The notes beneath the pieces were generated by a model. That model worked only from the letters and a program-made list of their open reading frames with translations. It was not told the DNA's origin and searched no databases. This document shows positions 8,292 through 19,947 of a stretch of DNA of 20,260 bases, piece after piece (the first letter of the stretch is position 1; every line of letters begins with the position of its first letter). The stretch comes from a virus, in IMG/VR virus record IMGVR_UViG_3300017739_000162, positions 1 through 20,260 of that record; one strand, written 5' to 3'. The translations under genes and the position numbers were made by a program.

Positions 8292-10163
8292 TTAAATATT
8301 TTTAACTCGTCCTCTTATATCTGAATCGGGGAATTTTATTTCAAAAATAGAAGGATCTAAAGAAGGGTATATAACACCATTAATGGTTGCTTGTTCTAAA
8401 TCATACTTATATTTTGAATAGTTTAAAATTTCCCCAAATTTATTATTAAATACTACTGATTCAACAGAACTAACTCCTTCAACTAGGTTTAATACATTAT
8501 ATATTTCACTTATTACAATAGGTTGATTTATTTGCCACCTATCTATATTAAAGAAATCTTTTAATTTACTAATACATTCGTTTACAACTACATTATTATT
8601 ATAATTTCTAAAAGTATTTATTTCAAAATCTAAATTAAGATTTATAACAAACGCATTTTTTATATTAATAGAATCAGTTAACATTCTAAACTGTTCTAAA
8701 TAAGTAGCTAAATTTTCTTTCGCAGCTAAATTTAAATCTACTATTTGTTTTTTATTATTATATCCTATTACATATAAATTTAATGCATTTGGGTTTTGTA
8801 TTCTTCTACTAGTTTCTGATGAAATTTGATCATCTTTATTTATATATGCTTTTGCTACTTTACCAAATTTTGATGGCATAACTAATGCTCTAAATATGTA
8901 GTCATCTTTTGTAACTGCTCTTTGTTGAGCGTTAAAATTAGCAGCTGCGTTTAATCTAATATCATTATTTGTATCTCCGGGCCCACCACCTCGAGCAGGT
9001 TCTGGATTAGTAACAGCTAAAGAAGTAATTTGATCAGATATATTAACACCTCCTGTATTTGCCTGGGTTTGTAATATTCCTTTCCTAGTAATTGTATTAC
9101 TATTTACATTAGATGATATACCTCCTCCTTTTAAATAAGTAACAGTTAGTGTGGTATTACTAGGAACTTCACCATAAGCTTTAGTATATAAAAAATTAGA
9201 AGGATCATAGGCTAAGTCTAATTGACTTCTGCCATCATTAATACCTAATCCTACGTTATCGGGATTAGGGATTATTTCTTCATCAGAATTACTAGATATT
9301 CCGGAACCAAATTGGATTTCTAGGGTATTATTTGATTTAAATCTACTTATAAATCTTTTAGGGACTTTTTTAGTTTTTAATAAAAAAGGAACTGTATTAT
9401 TGTATTTTGATAAACTTGGATCATTAGAATATATATTAGATACTTCTTCAAATACTGTTTCTTGGGCTAAATAAGGTACTTCAGTATACCTATTGCCATT
9501 ACTATCAACTATAGAATCGATTCCAATAATATCTGCATCTGTTATATTTAGTGTTAAAAATCTTTCTGGAGGACCTATCGTAAAATTTTTAACTTCAGAT
9601 TTAGCACTTATAGCAGTAACACTTTTTTTTAAAATATACTTTTGAGGTTGGTTAGTAACTGTGTTAATACTAAAAATTGAAATATCAGTGGGGTCAAAGG
9701 ATGAGGAAAAAGAAAAATTAACATCTTCTTGTGTTACAAACTCTAATTGAGTATTACTTTGTGGGAAAAATGAAGATCCTTCTTTAAGAGTAAGAGTTTT
9801 AGTAAAATCTGGTCCATTGGATGCTGCTGGTACTGTATGTGAAATATCTAATTTTACTGAAGAGGCATTAGTAACTTGTGGTTTATAGCCTAAAGTATAA
9901 GCTAAATCAAATAAATTATCTCTTTCTTGAGCATAAGATAATAGGGTTTCTTGAAGTTGAGTATCCGTATAAAATGATAAAACATCACCTACGTATGCAG
10001 CCATTTCAATAAACATCATACCCGGATTTCCTTCAGAAAAATCATTAGCTGTATTAGGGTAATAAATTTTTGCAAAATCTATTAATTGCTGTTTTAATTG
10101 TGCATAATCCCTATTTAGGTAATTTACTGTTTTAGTTTCGCTATTTACTTTAGAATATGACAT
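8292..10163 (-). CDS. Baseplate wedge protein, gp6-like (Baseplate_J superfamily)
   Basis: At 623 residues it is close to T4 gp6 (660). The N-terminal helical domain reads DFSEGNPGMMFIEMAAYVGD (about 41-60), then YTDTQLQETLL and LAYTLGYKPQ. That matches the 'dPgmmliEl-Ayvgd-L-yy-d-lnE-lGY-P' consensus of gp6-like wedge proteins. Around residues 383-424 lies the Baseplate_J hallmark: TNPEPARGGGPGDTNNDIRL followed by QQRAVTKDDY. In T4, gp6 dimers form the iris ring that joins wedges around the hub. The gene begins at the last base of the gp25-like gene's stop codon region (overlap of 1 base), a usual gp25-gp6 pairing. It is complete and looks functional. Confidence 0.92.
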   Translation of the reverse strand: MSYSKVNSETKTVNYLNRDYAQLKQQLIDFAKIYYPNTANDFSEGNPGMMFIEMAAYVGDVLSFYTDTQLQETLLSYAQERDNLFDLAYTLGYKPQVTNASSVKLDISHTVPAASNGPDFTKTLTLKEGSSFFPQSNTQLEFVTQEDVNFSFSSSFDPTDISIFSINTVTNQPQKYILKKSVTAISAKSEVKNFTIGPPERFLTLNITDADIIGIDSIVDSNGNRYTEVPYLAQETVFEEVSNIYSNDPSLSKYNNTVPFLLKTKKVPKRFISRFKSNNTLEIQFGSGISSNSDEEIIPNPDNVGLGINDGRSQLDLAYDPSNFLYTKAYGEVPSNTTLTVTYLKGGGISSNVNSNTITRKGILQTQANTGGVNISDQITSLAVTNPEPARGGGPGDTNNDIRLNAAANFNAQQRAVTKDDYIFRALVMPSKFGKVAKAYINKDDQISSETSRRIQNPNALNLYVIGYNNKKQIVDLNLAAKENLATYLEQFRMLTDSINIKNAFVINLNLDFEINTFRNYNNNVVVNECISKLKDFFNIDRWQINQPIVISEIYNVLNLVEGVSSVESVVFNNKFGEILNYSKYKYDLEQATINGVIYPSLDPSIFEIKFPDSDIRGRVKNI

Positions 10164-10579
10164 TAGTAATTAATTGTTAGTGTTACTGCATCCATTGCAT
10201 TGTTTGCTTTAAGTTTATATATAATTTTAATATCTACAAACTGGTTTTTTTTAAGTATTTCTATATTTTCAACAGAAACCTCGGGAACAAATAACTCAGT
10301 TTGGGTAGTAATAGTACTTTGTAAATCTTCTTCACTTATATTTTGTTTAAATAATTGTTGACTTATACCTACACCAAATAGGGGTTCATTAAATCTTTCA
10401 CCCGGATTAGTTAATAGTAAATTTAAAAGATTACTTTTTACTTGATCTTTAGTAGTATAATTTAATTCAAAGGGGCTCCCCGTAGATCTAAATGGTAATT
10501 TTACCCCTAAAGCTTTTTTAGGTTCTAAATCTATTGGATCTATTTCAATTAATTCCCTTTGTTTAAATCTTATAGCCAT
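10163..10579 (-). CDS. Baseplate wedge protein / sheath initiator, gp25-like
   Basis: This 138-residue protein has the gp25/GPW signature. The core LLTNPGERFNEPLFGVGI (about residues 55-72) matches the family 'l-T-pGER-x-x-x-P-x-FG' motif, and the C-terminus is a beta-hairpin of the expected type (VDIKIIYKL). T4 gp25 sits at the top of the wedge and starts sheath polymerisation. It lies directly upstream of the gp6-like gene, overlapping by 1 base, and directly downstream of a small helical gene. Where T4-type proteins carry an Glu-Pro-Arg motif, this protein reads FVPEVSV (about residues 97-103), so that motif is altered or absent. The family call is firm. Confidence 0.93.
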   Translation of the reverse strand: MAIRFKQRELIEIDPIDLEPKKALGVKLPFRSTGSPFELNYTTKDQVKSNLLNLLLTNPGERFNEPLFGVGISQQLFKQNISEEDLQSTITTQTELFVPEVSVENIEILKKNQFVDIKIIYKLKANNAMDAVTLTINY

Positions 10580-10932
10580 TAGGGTCTAAAATTCTTATTT
10601 TTATTCATTGCCTCCATTAATGGTCCATAGTCTTTATTTACAAATTGGTTTATTGGATCATTAGTAGTAAAAGTATCTTCAGGAGATGGTGTATTAGCTG
10701 TTTCACTAAGTAAAGAATCTAAAGTATTATTTCCCGTATTGAATGAAGGCATTTGTTGTTTTATATCCTGCCTAAATTTTTCTTTGCTTTTAGAATTATT
10801 TTGTTCTGTTATTTGGGGGCTTTTATTATATTTAATTTCCTCCTTTAAAGAATTTAATTCTCGTTTAAGAGCATAGTCTATTTCTTCTCTTACAACTTGT
10901 CTTATAATTTTCTCAAATGCACTTAATTTCAT
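10579..10932 (-). CDS. Small helical phage protein upstream of gp25-like gene
   Basis: This 117-residue, highly charged protein starts MKLSAFEKIIRQVVREEIDY, an amphipathic N-terminal helix of a sort found at the start of many T4-like marine phage proteins. The middle (about 30-75) is rich in Lys, Gln, Asn and Ser and probably disordered. The C-terminus reads INQFVNKDYGPLMEAMNK. There is no enzymatic motif. It overlaps the gp25-like start by 1 base and follows a 23-base AT-rich gap with an AATATATTTATT stretch. I do not recognise a function. A small baseplate-assembly partner is plausible from position only. Confidence 0.65.
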   Translation of the reverse strand: MKLSAFEKIIRQVVREEIDYALKRELNSLKEEIKYNKSPQITEQNNSKSKEKFRQDIKQQMPSFNTGNNTLDSLLSETANTPSPEDTFTTNDPINQFVNKDYGPLMEAMNKNKNFRP

Positions 10933-10958: not shown

Positions 10959-11816
10959 ACTTCTAGTTATTTTATACCCAGTTTCTAATATTTCAATATT
11001 ATTATCTCCTATGGAAATGTTTTTTAAGTATTGGATATATTTTTCTCTATTTGAATTTTCTAAATTATTTAATATTTCTTCCGGATTTTCACTCTGGGGA
11101 ATAGTTTCTTGTGTAAGGGTATCACTATCAACAAGACCACTAAATTCAGCTATAATTTGTAAATATATTTGATCTATAACTAATTTTTGAGCATTTATTA
11201 GTGAGTTAATATTATTAATTATACTTATAGCTTCATTACAAGATTCTTCAATCGGATCTGTTTGATCAGTAATATGTTCTTTTATACCCTCTATCACTTT
11301 TGATAGCGATTCAAATTGGTCTACCTTAGATTTTGCCTCTTTTAATTTATCATCAGTACTAATAATAGCGCCTCCACCTGATCCTGGTATTGGTGCACCT
11401 ACTGGGGTATTTATAGGTAAAGCATTTAAGGCTATCCTAGCACCCGTTATTAATTTTTTTAATGTTGGGATAAAACTAAGAGCTGTTTCAAAAAAATCAT
11501 TTAATTTATCAAAACGTTCGTTTACTTTTGAAATTTTATCTACTATTGCTTGAATTTCATTACTTTTTTGTAAACTTTTATTTTGTAAATTTTCAGTTTC
11601 AGATTTTAATCTTATGTATTTTTTATCGACTAGATCTAATTGCTCCTGTGTAACTGGTAATCCTCCCAGTTGTTGTTTAATAGTTTCAGGATCAGATAAT
11701 TTTTTTAAAATTTCTTCTTTTAAATTAGAAGAAGTACTATTCTTTACTTTATTTTTTATTTCTTCTACAGCAAGTGTATTAGATGAAATTATACTATTAA
11801 ATGCGTCTTGTATCAT
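10956..11816 (-). CDS. Coiled-coil tail/baseplate protein, unknown family
   Basis: Most of this 286-residue protein is predicted helical. The first coiled-coil stretch runs over about residues 66-115 (KYIRLKSETENLQNKSLQK onward). A short hydrophobic part (ALSFIPTLKKLITGARIAL, about 112-130) leads to a Gly/Pro loop (TPVGAPIPGSGGGAI). A second helical stretch (about 155-225) contains NSLINAQKLVIDQIYLQII. The C-terminus is a small ordered tail. Its start overlaps the previous stop by 4 bases (ATGA), which suggests translational coupling. The architecture resembles helical virion proteins that pack around the tail hub, but I cannot name the family. A tail-assembly role is inferred from context. 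Confidence 0.65.
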   Translation of the reverse strand: MIQDAFNSIISSNTLAVEEIKNKVKNSTSSNLKEEILKKLSDPETIKQQLGGLPVTQEQLDLVDKKYIRLKSETENLQNKSLQKSNEIQAIVDKISKVNERFDKLNDFFETALSFIPTLKKLITGARIALNALPINTPVGAPIPGSGGGAIISTDDKLKEAKSKVDQFESLSKVIEGIKEHITDQTDPIEESCNEAISIINNINSLINAQKLVIDQIYLQIIAEFSGLVDSDTLTQETIPQSENPEEILNNLENSNREKYIQYLKNISIGDNNIEILETGYKITRS

Positions 11817-12286
11817 GTTAAAAATACTTTAGTGCTTTTTATCTCGTCTAAGCTATTTTTTAAATTTGTAATTCTAGTTTTTGTAGCTTGAACTTTTGAA
11901 GGAAATGTAGCATCTGGGGCACATGGACCTGCTATTGGGGCTATTGGTTGTAATAATAATAAATCTATATTATACATTTGTTCTAAAATAGATAATATTT
12001 CTTTTAATTTACTAATTAATTCATTAGATTTTACAGCAGCATTATCAATAGTACTGCCGGGTGAATCAATACCTAATTGTATTCTGGGTGATTCAACTAT
12101 AAATTTACTATTCTCAGCTTGAGAAGTGTTAAAATGAATTTCTCCGTTTGTAGAAAAGGAAAATCCATTATTAGCAAAAAATAAACTATCATCTCCCGCA
12201 TTTAATAGAATTCTTCCTTGACTATTTGTTACTAATTGTTTACCTACATATAAATCAGGTAAAATTGGTTTAAATTTTTTAGACAT
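11813..12286 (-). CDS. Small beta-rich hub/spike-associated protein candidate
   Basis: This 157-residue protein has short beta-strand repeats in its first half (GRILLNAGDDSLFFANNG, then FSTNGEIHFNT and KFIVESPRIQLG, about residues 24-72). That alternation resembles the beta-prism or beta-helix pattern of spike-associated proteins. The second half is helical (about 85-105), followed by a proline-rich stretch (LLQPIAPIAGPCAPD). It follows the hub gene with a 1-base overlap and is coupled to the coiled-coil gene by a 4-base overlap. Position directly after the hub suggests a spike or hub accessory. No family is recognised with certainty. Confidence 0.6.
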   Translation of the reverse strand: MSKKFKPILPDLYVGKQLVTNSQGRILLNAGDDSLFFANNGFSFSTNGEIHFNTSQAENSKFIVESPRIQLGIDSPGSTIDNAAVKSNELISKLKEILSILEQMYNIDLLLLQPIAPIAGPCAPDATFPSKVQATKTRITNLKNSLDEIKSTKVFLT

Positions 12287-14463
12287 TATTTTCCTTTTCC
12301 TAAATTATATACTATTTGGGCATTTTGTAAGTAATCTATGCCCCCGGCTTTACCATTAGGTGCTGATCCTTCTTTTTTACCAAAAATACCATCCCTAAAT
12401 ATATTTTTTTCTTTTACAATTCCATCTTTAATTAAGAGTTCAAGATATTTTGGTACAAAAAATACAGGACAGGCTGTGTCTTTAGGTTCATTATCAATTG
12501 GTAATCTACCCATTTGATTATGACCACCTATTAAGATATTCGGATATTTTTTTACATAACGTTCTACTAATTTTCTTAACGTATATGCTTGGTTTTTTTG
12601 AATATCTATTTTCTTTGTAGTACCACCGATCCAACTAATATTAATAGCGTTTTTATTAGTTTTTTTAGCTATTTCATATGTAGGTGTAATTTGTAAATCA
12701 GAAGTACTTAAGGGACCTCCAACACCATTAGTAACAACACTATCACTATATAATCTTACAGCTAAATCGGGACCAAAATTTCGTGGAATGGTAATATTAT
12801 AACCCCCCGTATTCCATGGTATTTTTCCATCACTGCCTGGTAAAAAATGGGTTTGTATTATATCAACTGGGTTAGCTGAATCATATTGTGCTGTGGTATG
12901 GATCCATAAATATTTAACTGTTTTATTTGGATTAGAAGTTGGGGTTATTTTAGTAGGTTGTTTTATTTGTAAGCTATTTCCTTTGTAATTATAAGCTATT
13001 ACTGTTTCTCCAGAATTCCATCTATCTTTTAAACCTACATATTCTACCCTAGTAGAAAATCTTGGATGTGGGTTATCTCTTGATCCTACAGGTGCAGAAC
13101 TATTAGTAGAACCCGCATTAGTGTTACTAGGATTTGTATTATCTTCTTCTGCAGGTTCACAAGCAGCTATAAAAAATATTTCTGATGTTAATTCAGTTAC
13201 TGCTCCTTCTTCTACTGCTTCATCTAATAAAGCAAAAATTCCGTCTTTGTTTTGATCAACTAATGGAGGATCAAAAACAGCTTCTTCAACTACATTAGGG
13301 GGTTCTGAAAGTGCTCCATCATCAGCAATTACAATTTCTTCATCTAATTCAATTATAGGAGGTTGTACTACAGTTATAGGAGTAGGTGTATCAACTATTA
13401 ATACCTGTTCTTCAGTAGGTTCTTCAAACTCTATATCTAAGGTTTGTAAATTATCACTTGAAACTGATATATTTGAAATATTTTGACCGCTTAATAACCA
13501 CATAGAAGAATGCATATTATTTATATTCTCTAATGAAGCATCACCTTCTATTTCTTCGGATGAACCATTTCCCAATATTACAATGGGTTCTCCTTCACTT
13601 TCATTATCTGACCAATTATTTCTACCTCTGGGGTTTGAAGATCCAAAACGAAGGGACTGTCCAAACCTTCCTTCAATCATAACATCTCCTGAAAATTTTT
13701 GTTTCTTTTTTAAACCTTGGTCTTTAAAATCACCTAAATCAGTATAGTCTTCTTCATTACTATTATCATTTTGGGGGGTGGTTACCGTAGTTGTTTTATT
13801 TTCTTCTGGGATAAACTGTTTTTCAGCATAAAGTCTAGCTTTAGAATCTGCTATATTTAAATTTGTAGAAGTTCCTATTCCGGTTGCTTGTATACCATCA
13901 AATTCTAGGGTTATTGATACTGTATAAGCACCATCACTACTCTGAGTTACAGATCTGTCTATTACTTGAACGTTAGTTAAATTAACTGTTCCAGTAGTCC
14001 TAGTAACTACAGTATTATTTTGTTGTATTCCTAAAGCCGCTTCTTCACTATTGTTTTTTGGGCTATTAGTCATTCTATCCGAGGGTAAAGCATTATGCTC
14101 TACATTATTATGAATATTTAAGGCCGGATAGTAATAATAGGCTTTATTAGATTTTTCACCCTTTAATTTTCTATATATTCGACTAGAGGGACCCGGAAAA
14201 ATTTGTACTACTTCAGATTTTAAGGGAACACTACTTATAAAAGGAAATGCTGGTAATGCTACATCTAAAGCATCTGTATTTGTAGTATTATCGTCATTTT
14301 TTGTTTTATGGAAAAAAATTATACCTATTGAATCTTCTCCCTTATATTCAGGATGATCACTAGTTAAAATTGTATCCATAACTCTTCCAAAAAAGAAAGG
14401 AGCTGGGTTATTAATTACACTATTACTTCCTTTATTATTATTTTTTTTGTTCCTTAAACTCAT
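12286..14463 (-). CDS. Baseplate hub protein, gp5-like, with C-terminal zinc amidase domain
   Basis: The N-terminus of this 725-residue protein (PAPFFFGRVMDTILTSDHPE, residues 20-39, through about 130) looks like the OB-fold of gp5-type hubs. Residues 258-300 (SGDVMIEGRFGQSLRFGSS, then EPIVILGNG) match the 'GDv-EGRfG-slRfGs' segment of gp5-like proteins in marine T4-like phages. An acidic linker covers about 340-450. Residues 515-672 read as an N-acetylmuramoyl-L-alanine amidase (Amidase_2, T7-lysozyme type). Likely zinc ligands are H522 (LWIHTT), H648 (IGGHNQ) and C665 (TACPVF), with Y555 (GGYNITI) and K661 as probable catalytic helpers. So the spike carries an amidase where T4 gp5 carries a lysozyme, and it would cut peptidoglycan stem peptides during entry. 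An A8 run lies in its 26-base overlap with the upstream gene. Hub identity and amidase are both read from the sequence by eye. Confidence 0.85.
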   Translation of the reverse strand: MSLRNKKNNNKGSNSVINNPAPFFFGRVMDTILTSDHPEYKGEDSIGIIFFHKTKNDDNTTNTDALDVALPAFPFISSVPLKSEVVQIFPGPSSRIYRKLKGEKSNKAYYYYPALNIHNNVEHNALPSDRMTNSPKNNSEEAALGIQQNNTVVTRTTGTVNLTNVQVIDRSVTQSSDGAYTVSITLEFDGIQATGIGTSTNLNIADSKARLYAEKQFIPEENKTTTVTTPQNDNSNEEDYTDLGDFKDQGLKKKQKFSGDVMIEGRFGQSLRFGSSNPRGRNNWSDNESEGEPIVILGNGSSEEIEGDASLENINNMHSSMWLLSGQNISNISVSSDNLQTLDIEFEEPTEEQVLIVDTPTPITVVQPPIIELDEEIVIADDGALSEPPNVVEEAVFDPPLVDQNKDGIFALLDEAVEEGAVTELTSEIFFIAACEPAEEDNTNPSNTNAGSTNSSAPVGSRDNPHPRFSTRVEYVGLKDRWNSGETVIAYNYKGNSLQIKQPTKITPTSNPNKTVKYLWIHTTAQYDSANPVDIIQTHFLPGSDGKIPWNTGGYNITIPRNFGPDLAVRLYSDSVVTNGVGGPLSTSDLQITPTYEIAKKTNKNAINISWIGGTTKKIDIQKNQAYTLRKLVERYVKKYPNILIGGHNQMGRLPIDNEPKDTACPVFFVPKYLELLIKDGIVKEKNIFRDGIFGKKEGSAPNGKAGGIDYLQNAQIVYNLGKGK

Positions 14464-14797
14464 CTTTTGCTACTTCTTCTGCTATTTGCTGAAGTTGTTT
14501 TAATTCATCATCTGTAAGTAACGAATCCCCACTGCCCGAACTAGCATTATTTTGTAGTCTTTGGATAACTGCCATCATTTTAATTAAGTGTTCATCATTT
14601 TTAACACTTACTTCTAAATATTCTTTTATAAGAGGGACTACAACAGGAGCATCTCCTATATTTTGTATTAAAGGTTTTAATTCAGCAATTAAAGAATTAA
14701 TTTGTTTATCTTTTTTTTTACTATTATTATATATTTCCTTAAATACGTCAGATGCCGCTTTACCTTCAAATATTATTGTATCAAGTGGATTACTCAT
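14438..14797 (-). CDS. Small helical phage protein upstream of the hub gene
   Basis: I place the start at ATG 14797 (MSNPLDTIIFEGKAASDVF), giving 119 residues, because this reads like a natural N-terminus; an in-frame ATG at 14821 would add MKLGIFIN. The protein is mainly helical and charged. It has a KKKDKQINSLIAELKPLI stretch, then a mid-section helix ending in MMAVIQRL, a Ser/Gly linker (NNASSGSGDSL), and an acidic C-terminal helix. There is no catalytic motif. It overlaps the end of the gp55-like gene by 8 bases and the hub gene by 26 bases. The hub overlap contains a run of eight A residues. A chaperone or hub-assembly role is possible from position but unproven. Confidence 0.65.
   Translation of the reverse strand: MSNPLDTIIFEGKAASDVFKEIYNNSKKKDKQINSLIAELKPLIQNIGDAPVVVPLIKEYLEVSVKNDEHLIKMMAVIQRLQNNASSGSGDSLLTDDELKQLQQIAEEVAKDEFKEQKK
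14441..14448 (-). other. A8 run in the overlap of two genes
   Basis: Eight consecutive A residues (minus strand) sit in the 26-base overlap between the small helical gene and the hub gene. The upstream frame reads CAA AAA AAA TAA and the hub frame reads AAC AAA AAA AAT. Loss of one A by slippage, or a +1 shift, would join the upstream reading frame to the hub frame. The hub gene has its own ATG at 14463, so this is not needed to explain the gene. Confidence 0.4.
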
Positions 14798-15497
14798 GTT
14801 TATAAATATACCCAGTTTCAAGGTATTGAGTATAACAACTAAGATATATTTTCTTCATTATTTTTACTACTTTAGTAATAATAGGGGTTTCAAGACCCGT
14901 AATTTCTCTAATATAAATATAAATAGCTTTTTTATTAAAAATTTCTAAAGATTCACGTTTTTTAAATATAGTTAAAACAGCGTCTGCGACTTGAATTTCT
15001 TCCTGTTTTTTAAAAGTACTTGATAAAATATTATCCATATATGCTATAAATAAATCTAAAAACTCAATTTTTTCACTACGAACTGCATTTCTATCAAATT
15101 CATTTAATATGTTATCATCAGTATCTACTTCAATTAAATCTGCTTTAATTTTTTTCTTAGCATAGTTTTTATTATTGTATAATATAAGATAATTTTTTCC
15201 TACTATACTAAAATAAGAAAAGGCTTTACCCTTGCCCACCTTAAAATAGTGAAGTTTTTCAAGTAAAAAGCAAATAACTTCATGTTTTAAATCTTCAAGA
15301 TCATCTACTTCTGTATAATAAAATTTAAAAGTATGGATAAGATTTTCGGCCAGTTTATAAAACGAATAATGTATTCGCGAATTATAAATCCGATTTCTTT
15401 CTGTTTGGTCTTCGCTAGCTAAATATTCAATTATAGCTAATTCTGTATCTTCTGTAAAATATAATCTTTTACTTTTACGTCCTCTTTTTTTGGCCAT
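14790..15497 (-). CDS. 55: Late-transcription sigma factor, gp55-like
   Basis: This 235-residue protein is longer than T4 gp55 (185). Residues about 13-115 carry the gp55 pattern: YFTEDTELAIIEYLAS, then KLAENLIHTFKFYY, DLEDLKHEVICFLLEKL and KGKAFSYFSIVGKNYLI. This is a sigma-70 region-2-like core that binds host RNA polymerase and recognises a -10-type element. The C-terminus (about 192-222, IREITGLETPIITKVVKIMK) could form a helix-turn-helix-like segment. The N-terminus is basic (AKKRGRKSKR). In T4, gp55 needs the gp45 clamp and gp33; neither is in this window. The gene sits in the same run as the hub gene, so it may be co-transcribed with its own targets. The gene symbol follows the T4 convention. 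Confidence 0.88.
   Translation of the reverse strand: MAKKRGRKSKRLYFTEDTELAIIEYLASEDQTERNRIYNSRIHYSFYKLAENLIHTFKFYYTEVDDLEDLKHEVICFLLEKLHYFKVGKGKAFSYFSIVGKNYLILYNNKNYAKKKIKADLIEVDTDDNILNEFDRNAVRSEKIEFLDLFIAYMDNILSSTFKKQEEIQVADAVLTIFKKRESLEIFNKKAIYIYIREITGLETPIITKVVKIMKKIYLSCYTQYLETGYIYKHE
14801..14810 (-). promoter_or_regulatory. TATATTTATA motif near the start of the small helical gene before the hub gene
   Basis: Minus-strand TATATTTATA lies 3 bases before the ATG at 14797, inside the end of the sigma-factor gene. Its complement is TATAAATATA. The close spacing would make a -10 reading leaderless or misplaced, so it may be coincidence here. It is exact to the core seen at 1386-1397 and 19541-19552. 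Confidence 0.3.
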
Positions 15498-19566: not shown

Positions 19567-19947
19567 TTAACGTTTTCCCCCCCAATATTCAACTCCGTGC
19601 CCTTCTTCTATTAATTGTTTATTAACATTAATTTTAGTAATACCCGTTTCTATAGATACTGGAGAAAGGGAATTTACTAAAACAGTAGCTAATGCTCTAC
19701 CATATTTTCCCACTCCAGAAACTTTTAAAATACATTTATTATCATTAAATTTTAAAATTTCTACTAATCTATCTTTTGCGGCTAAACCACGTTTTTTTTC
19801 TTCTAAATCTCTAGTTCGGGATTCCGGGGTATTAATACCCTCCATTCGGACTCTTATTTTTTTCCAAACATTAAATCCTAAATCAATAGTAACATCTATT
19901 GTGTCACCATCAACTACCCTATCTAATACAGCATTGTATTCGTACAT
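19567..19947 (-). CDS. Staphylococcal-nuclease-fold protein (thermonuclease-like)
   Basis: This 126-residue single-domain protein matches the SNase fold. VVDGDTIDV (about 11-19) gives the calcium-site aspartates D13 and D15; IRVRMEGINTPESR (31-44) supplies the arginine equivalent to Arg35 (R34) and the general base equivalent to Glu43 (E42). GKYGRALATVL (80-90) supplies the arginine equivalent to Arg87 (R84). The residue matching the SNase Asp40 ligand is N39, as in some phage and bacterial homologues. The three catalytic residues being present suggests an active DNA/RNA phosphodiesterase. No signal peptide is seen, so it would act in the cytoplasm or be delivered. It follows the small membrane protein with a 1-base overlap. 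Confidence 0.85.
   Translation of the reverse strand: MYEYNAVLDRVVDGDTIDVTIDLGFNVWKKIRVRMEGINTPESRTRDLEEKKRGLAAKDRLVEILKFNDNKCILKVSGVGKYGRALATVLVNSLSPVSIETGITKINVNKQLIEEGHGVEYWGGKR

Follow-up and report, generated by a model that had tools for sequence, protein, structure and literature searches.

The phage T4 protein gp5 comprises an OB-fold (residues 1-129), a lysozyme (174-339) and a needle (389-575), and its cleavage at Ser351/Ala352 yields gp5* (base plus enzyme) and gp5C (needle), found as two distinct chains in virions (PMC7650644). A 20.3-kb virus fragment from IMG/VR, the whole of which (20,260 nucleotides) is referred to here as the window, contains an ORF that an earlier note had described as a gp5-like hub protein with a zinc amidase in place of the T4 lysozyme, placed at the far C-terminus and hence in a different domain order. 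The locus raises the question of whether this protein is the base of a T4-type spike and, if so, where its needle is.

Genomic Setting of the Hub Gene

The hub is encoded by a single uninterrupted ORF of 725 amino acids, which bears out the fusion of base and amidase in one frame described previously; the strand, unstated at that time, is minus, and the gene is read from 14463 down to 12286. Downstream of it on the same strand lie, in order, a 157-aa ORF (11813-12286), a 286-aa ORF, a 117-aa ORF, the gp25 gene and a gp6-like gene. Given its position upstream of gp25 and the gp6-like gene on the same strand, the hub ORF is a member of a baseplate gene cluster.

12286..14463, minus strand: putative spike base, linker and zinc amidase, 725 aa (ORF; E=8e-56 to the homologous N-terminal half of single-ORF hubs)
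10163..10579, minus strand: gp25 baseplate wedge gene (Pfam GPW_gp25, E=9.4e-10)
8292..10163, minus strand: gp6-like baseplate wedge gene, used as search anchor (PHROG phrog_219, E=2.4e-20)

Related loci were collected by a search anchored on the gp6-like gene, which gave 80 loci, many of them with a conserved small ORF ahead of the hub, and by a search with an alignment of the putative needle protein described below, from which the best 80 of 346 relatives were taken into the locus set. The locus counts given here therefore describe a sample, and many of the loci are near-copies.

Other genes in the window were also inspected. A small protein with an REE-rich start and a KDYxxLM end (10579-10932) directly precedes gp25 in almost every locus, even where the hubs are quite different. 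Upstream of the hub, a 235-aa protein (14790-15497) is conserved in most loci and shares 41% identity with its counterpart in Microcystis phage Mel-JY01; by eye it resembles a T4 gp55-type late sigma factor, and it gave no PHROG or Pfam match. A staphylococcal-nuclease-like gene (19567-19947; SNase, E=6e-9) lies near the fragment edge, and searches for RNA families and tRNAs found none in the window.

The C-terminal Domain Is Predicted to Be a Zinc Amidase

12451..12927, minus strand: zinc amidase, residues 513-671, with H522, Y555, H648, T663 and C665 (Pfam, PHROG, family profile, conservation)

An Amidase_2 pattern had been read by eye at residues 515-672. In agreement with this, residues 505-675 matched the PHROG amidase family phrog_822 (E=2.2e-10), and a profile of the family matched T7 lysozyme (E=4e-16) and also PGRP amidases. 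The corresponding Pfam check located Amidase_2 (PF01510) at residues 513-666 with E=3.2e-4, yet the score of 21.5 bits is under the curated cut-off of 26; 12 relatives that are more distant but have this same architecture exceed the cut-off. Among the leading Foldseek matches of the hub model, the mean pLDDT of which is 55, were AmpD and a type-2 amidase endolysin (6fhg), with weak E values of 0.009-0.03. As judged by these sequence comparisons the amidase domain is real and, because of its family membership and conserved active site, would be expected to cut the N-acetylmuramoyl-L-alanine bond in peptidoglycan.

Alignment of 17 fused amidases revealed that H522, Y555, H648 and C665 are invariant in all of them. 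Following the pattern of T7-type zinc amidases, H522, H648 and C665 are the zinc ligands and Y555 is the catalytic tyrosine, and the earlier note had picked out each of these four residues. Its further choice of K661 as a catalytic residue is ruled out, as K661 sits in an insertion shared by the window and one relative (L001). In these two proteins threonine (T663 in the window) occupies the column of the T7 lysine, two residues before the cysteine ligand, and lysine occupies it in the other 15, such that the window protein lacks the lysine of the T7 type. Members of the fold do not all need a lysine two residues before the cysteine ligand, and threonine takes its place in some catalytic PGRPs; T663 would be compatible with amidase activity.

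The same threonine, found where 15 of the 17 proteins and T7 lysozyme have lysine, could indicate that the domain is a non-catalytic, peptidoglycan-binding module comparable with the non-catalytic PGRPs, and several of the PGRPs matched by the family profile are indeed recognition proteins. However, all three zinc ligands and the tyrosine are kept, and relatives substitute M15 enzymes for the amidase whose zinc motifs are for the most part intact, suggestive of selection for cutting. Loss of catalysis is accordingly regarded as unlikely.

The Base Resembles gp5 in Position and Architecture

14074..14406, minus strand: residues 20-130, N-terminal beta domain, candidate OB-fold (conserved in all hubs; model strands; no Gp5_OB match)
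13819..13986, minus strand: residues 160-215, lineage-specific inserted beta-beta-beta-alpha domain, dsRBD-like (pLDDT 83-94 by block; Foldseek)
13477..13701, minus strand: residues 255-329, GDVMIEGRFGQSLRFGSS...SSMWLLSGQ hub-family signature (40% identity to the Mel-JY01 hub; conserved across hubs)
13009..13476, minus strand: residues 330-485, low-confidence acidic linker (D/E-rich; pLDDT mostly <50)

The whole hub protein is common to the window and its near relatives, and residues ∼20-130 and 255-329 are conserved across hubs, including those of phages in which base and needle segments occupy one ORF (single-ORF hubs). Profile comparison of residues 18-345 with the single-ORF hubs gave E=7.8e-56. 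The N-terminal part, for which no Pfam or PHROG match was obtained, was modeled at moderate confidence with about six strands (24-31, 49-53, 67-71, 76-78, 85-92 and 107-111; pLDDT about 50-81 by block of ten). The long acidic linker previously placed at about 340-450 is clearly present, with 22 D/E and a single K/R among the 88 residues from 330 to 417.

Residues 160-215 form the most confident part of the hub model (pLDDT 83-94), and Foldseek paired them with dsRBD and ribosomal S5 folds (E 0.015-0.08). This insert is present only in close relatives of the window, including L092 and L093 (E=5.5e-10), and weakly in L091. A dsRBD-like module would be odd in a tail spike and may reflect a mere likeness of fold; phmmer searches of the PDB with the whole hub or with the insert gave no match.

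The N-terminal and 258-300 segments had been called gp5-like, and this description holds for position and architecture and fails at the level of sequence families. None of Gp5_OB, Phage_base_V and Gp5_C from Pfam matched any hub-family member scanned, with a library that detects Gp5_OB in the gp5 proteins of T4, Kuja and SFP10. The hub and needle profiles gave no hhalign signal with T4 gp5 or with an alignment of 11 gp5 homologues, and a Foldseek search of the PDB with the hub model returned amidase and dsRBD-like folds and no gp5 in the top 50. Against BFVD, the same model matched the Vibrio phage Kuja hub at a level too weak to use (E=0.006, probability 0.41), and DUF2345 was matched weakly by one hub-family member (E=0.047). 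A further BFVD match (A0A6J5MDN0, E=1.2e-7) is named glycoside hydrolase family 19, a hint that this hub family may include other enzyme types as well. The hub is consequently termed gp5-like by position and architecture only, and its N-terminal domain is a candidate, possibly divergent, OB-fold. The reading as a baseplate spike or hub protein with a zinc amidase where T4 gp5 has its lysozyme fits both the gp25/gp6 neighborhood and the homology among hubs.

A Putative Needle Is Encoded by a Separate Gene

11813..12286, minus strand: putative needle protein, 157 aa, octad-repeat beta part and helical end (hhalign E=4.6e-28; period-8 hydropathy; AF2)
12284..12288, minus strand: TAATG stop-start overlap joining the base-amidase and needle genes, with purine-rich GGAAAAGGAAAA just 5' of the ATG

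The product of the adjoining ORF aligned with the C-terminal half of the single-ORF hubs (L033, L048, Mel-JY01, Flavobacterium phage immuto and others) with an hhalign E value of 4.6e-28. In the single-ORF hubs, an SSIxLTSxQ signature runs directly into a QIxxNSDRIxLNSK...IGLxT segment, and it is this segment that is homologous to the 157-aa protein. Since the two ORFs of the window are homologous to the two halves of the single-ORF hubs, the order is base-enzyme-needle, as in T4 gp5. The different domain order claimed for the hub was apparent only, because one ORF alone had been read, and the two genes are divided at the enzyme-needle boundary, which is also the place of T4 gp5 cleavage.

The repeat of the T4 gp5 needle is eight residues long, VxGxxxxx (PMC4576200). 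Column-averaged hydropathy of the 157-aa family has a period of 8 (residues 15-72, p=0.0007), as has that of the fused version in the single-ORF hubs (p=0.0005), and the needle part of the single-ORF hub profile weakly matched the beta-helix of a T6SS VgrG (8gra, E=0.0058). The AF2 model of the 157-aa protein (mean pLDDT 61) contains strands at 18, 26, 34 and 41 and two helices; the PDB matches that Foldseek returned for it were noise, mainly on the helices. From the repeat and the homology, we read this protein as a needle with a helical end.

The distance between the needle ORF and the ORF before it is -1 or +1 in 68 of 90 loci, and the needle is probably made by translation coupled to that of the base-amidase gene. 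The existence of single-ORF homologues raises the alternative that the split is a frameshift, an assembly error or a decayed gene. This was ruled out by its recurrence in at least 84 loci of the combined set: in 67 the hub is directly before the needle (fragments included), and in 17 a whole extra ORF stands between them. The start methionine of the needle is also conserved, and the ORF junction is regular.

Two Families of Zinc Enzymes Occupy One Slot

Inspection of the sampled split loci reveals that the recognized enzymes are Amidase_2 or M15 zinc peptidases, either fused to the base or encoded by an ORF of their own, in the same slot. The 35 non-redundant hubs that directly precede a needle comprise 16 with an amidase (L124 and a few others being assigned by active-site motif or alignment and not scanned singly), 15 with an M15-type enzyme (Peptidase_M15_3, M15_4 or VanY, two of them below the Pfam cut-off) and 4 without a recognized enzyme (L015, L132, L143 and the short L096). 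All of the in-between ORFs scanned were Peptidase_M15_3. The HxxGxAxD and WIH-type zinc motifs are retained in nearly all M15 cases.

In a tree of gp6, the change between split and single-ORF hubs is a single step (100/99), and the M15_4 hub L013 falls inside a group of amidase hubs (99/92). The position of this M15 hub within the amidase group means that enzymes have been exchanged.

Several hubs depart from the two main types. The 804-aa hubs at L015:2593-5007 and L016:2586-5000 belong to the split lineage and have a long C-terminal part without a Pfam match, which may be a new kind of cartridge. At L132:158-1117 and L143:394-1365, short hubs of 319 and 323 aa stand directly before the needle ORF, and the slot is empty of an enzyme. 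In the cultured Sinorhizobium phage phiM7, the gene directly after that of the gp5-related hub gp97 (L173:3649-5211) encodes a Peptidase_M15_3 domain (E=8e-19), a further case of a spike with a zinc peptidase as its neighbor.

These data bear on whether the amidase could instead be a lysis enzyme of the endolysin type, active when the infection ends, whose fusion to a structural protein is incidental. The matching PHROG and Pfam families are named as lysis enzymes, and no other lysis gene was recognized within the window; the window is a fragment, however, and hence a missing endolysin says little. A lysis role is also at odds with the enzyme slot, which dozens of loci place between base and needle within a baseplate operon and which is filled from two unrelated enzyme families; we consider such a role improbable.

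Proposed Mechanism

The observations are best accommodated if the hub ORF belongs to a contractile-tail phage and encodes the base of its central cell-puncturing spike, with the T4 gp5 plan realized as two genes and an exchangeable enzyme slot, and we regard this as likely. Counted against it are the lack of a T4 gp5 match for base or needle, the threonine in the lysine column and the weakness of the structure models of both hub and needle. In such a spike, residues 20-330 would dock the whole to the tail tip, and the long flexible acidic linker would carry the T7-lysozyme-type zinc amidase. The product of 11813-12286, the putative needle, presumably trimerizes and would sit under the base. 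On contraction, the needle would pierce the outer membrane and the base-amidase would reach the periplasm, where the enzyme could open a local hole in the peptidoglycan for the tube. What T4 obtains by cutting a single polypeptide in two would here be supplied by separate genes.

Extended to the relatives, the somewhat favored reading is of an uncultured contractile-tail lineage with a two-gene spike, in which a zinc amidase or M15 cartridge, fused or separate, is exchangeable and the needle always has its own gene. The gene break would replace the cleavage of T4, and the recognized enzymes would attack the peptide side and not the glycan strand of the wall.

Together the relatives amount to a natural set of variants of one spike that differ in their enzyme, which makes it testable whether the entry enzyme follows host peptidoglycan and for what reason enzyme and needle have to separate. 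Sequence marks for hubs that are unnamed at present by Pfam and PHROGs are additionally provided by the GRFGQSLRFGS segment and the 157-aa putative needle.

Comparison with Known Systems

The amidase domain shares its fold family, the zinc ligands H, H and C and the tyrosine with T7 lysozyme and the phrog_822 amidases; in contrast, the T7 enzyme is free-standing and has lysine where the window has threonine. The closest hubs in named phages are those of Mel-JY01, the sole tblastn match among these phages, and immuto, which have homologous base and needle segments and the same gene neighborhood. Unlike the window, they carry base and needle in one ORF with no enzyme inside; in Mel-JY01, a separate gene annotated as chitinase, without a Pfam match, adjoins the hub.

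The open-licence literature searched contained no description of an amidase spike whose needle has its own gene, and the combination of a pair of zinc enzymes in one lineage with a constant gene split was likewise not found in those papers. Enzyme replacement in the spike as such is already known. Salmonella phage SFP10 gp5, a Kuttervirus hub, also has a non-lysozyme wall enzyme between base and needle, whereas it is a single chain with a true Gp5_OB match and a cysteine CHAP enzyme in the lysozyme position. RaK2 gp078 is likewise a tail-tip protein with its wall-cutting enzyme elsewhere than in T4, the lysozyme following the beta-helix in one chain (PMC3622015). In cyanophage A-1(L), a peptidase and an endoglucanase are borne by the hub ring protein gp15 and not by the central spike gp25 (PMC10966104).

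With T4 gp5 itself, the window shares the order of base, wall-cutting enzyme and octad-repeat, putatively beta-helical needle, the location in a baseplate operon and the separation of enzyme from needle (PMC7650644, PMC4576200). By contrast, T4 lysozyme cuts glycan and the window enzyme is a zinc amidase; the T4 protein is one cleaved chain, whereas in the window the chain ends after the amidase and the octad-repeat protein is the next ORF; and the window hub has a long acidic linker and no detectable sequence homology to gp5. The comparison suggests that the T4 plan of base, wall-cutting enzyme and needle can be realized with another enzyme class and with two genes in place of one self-processed chain.
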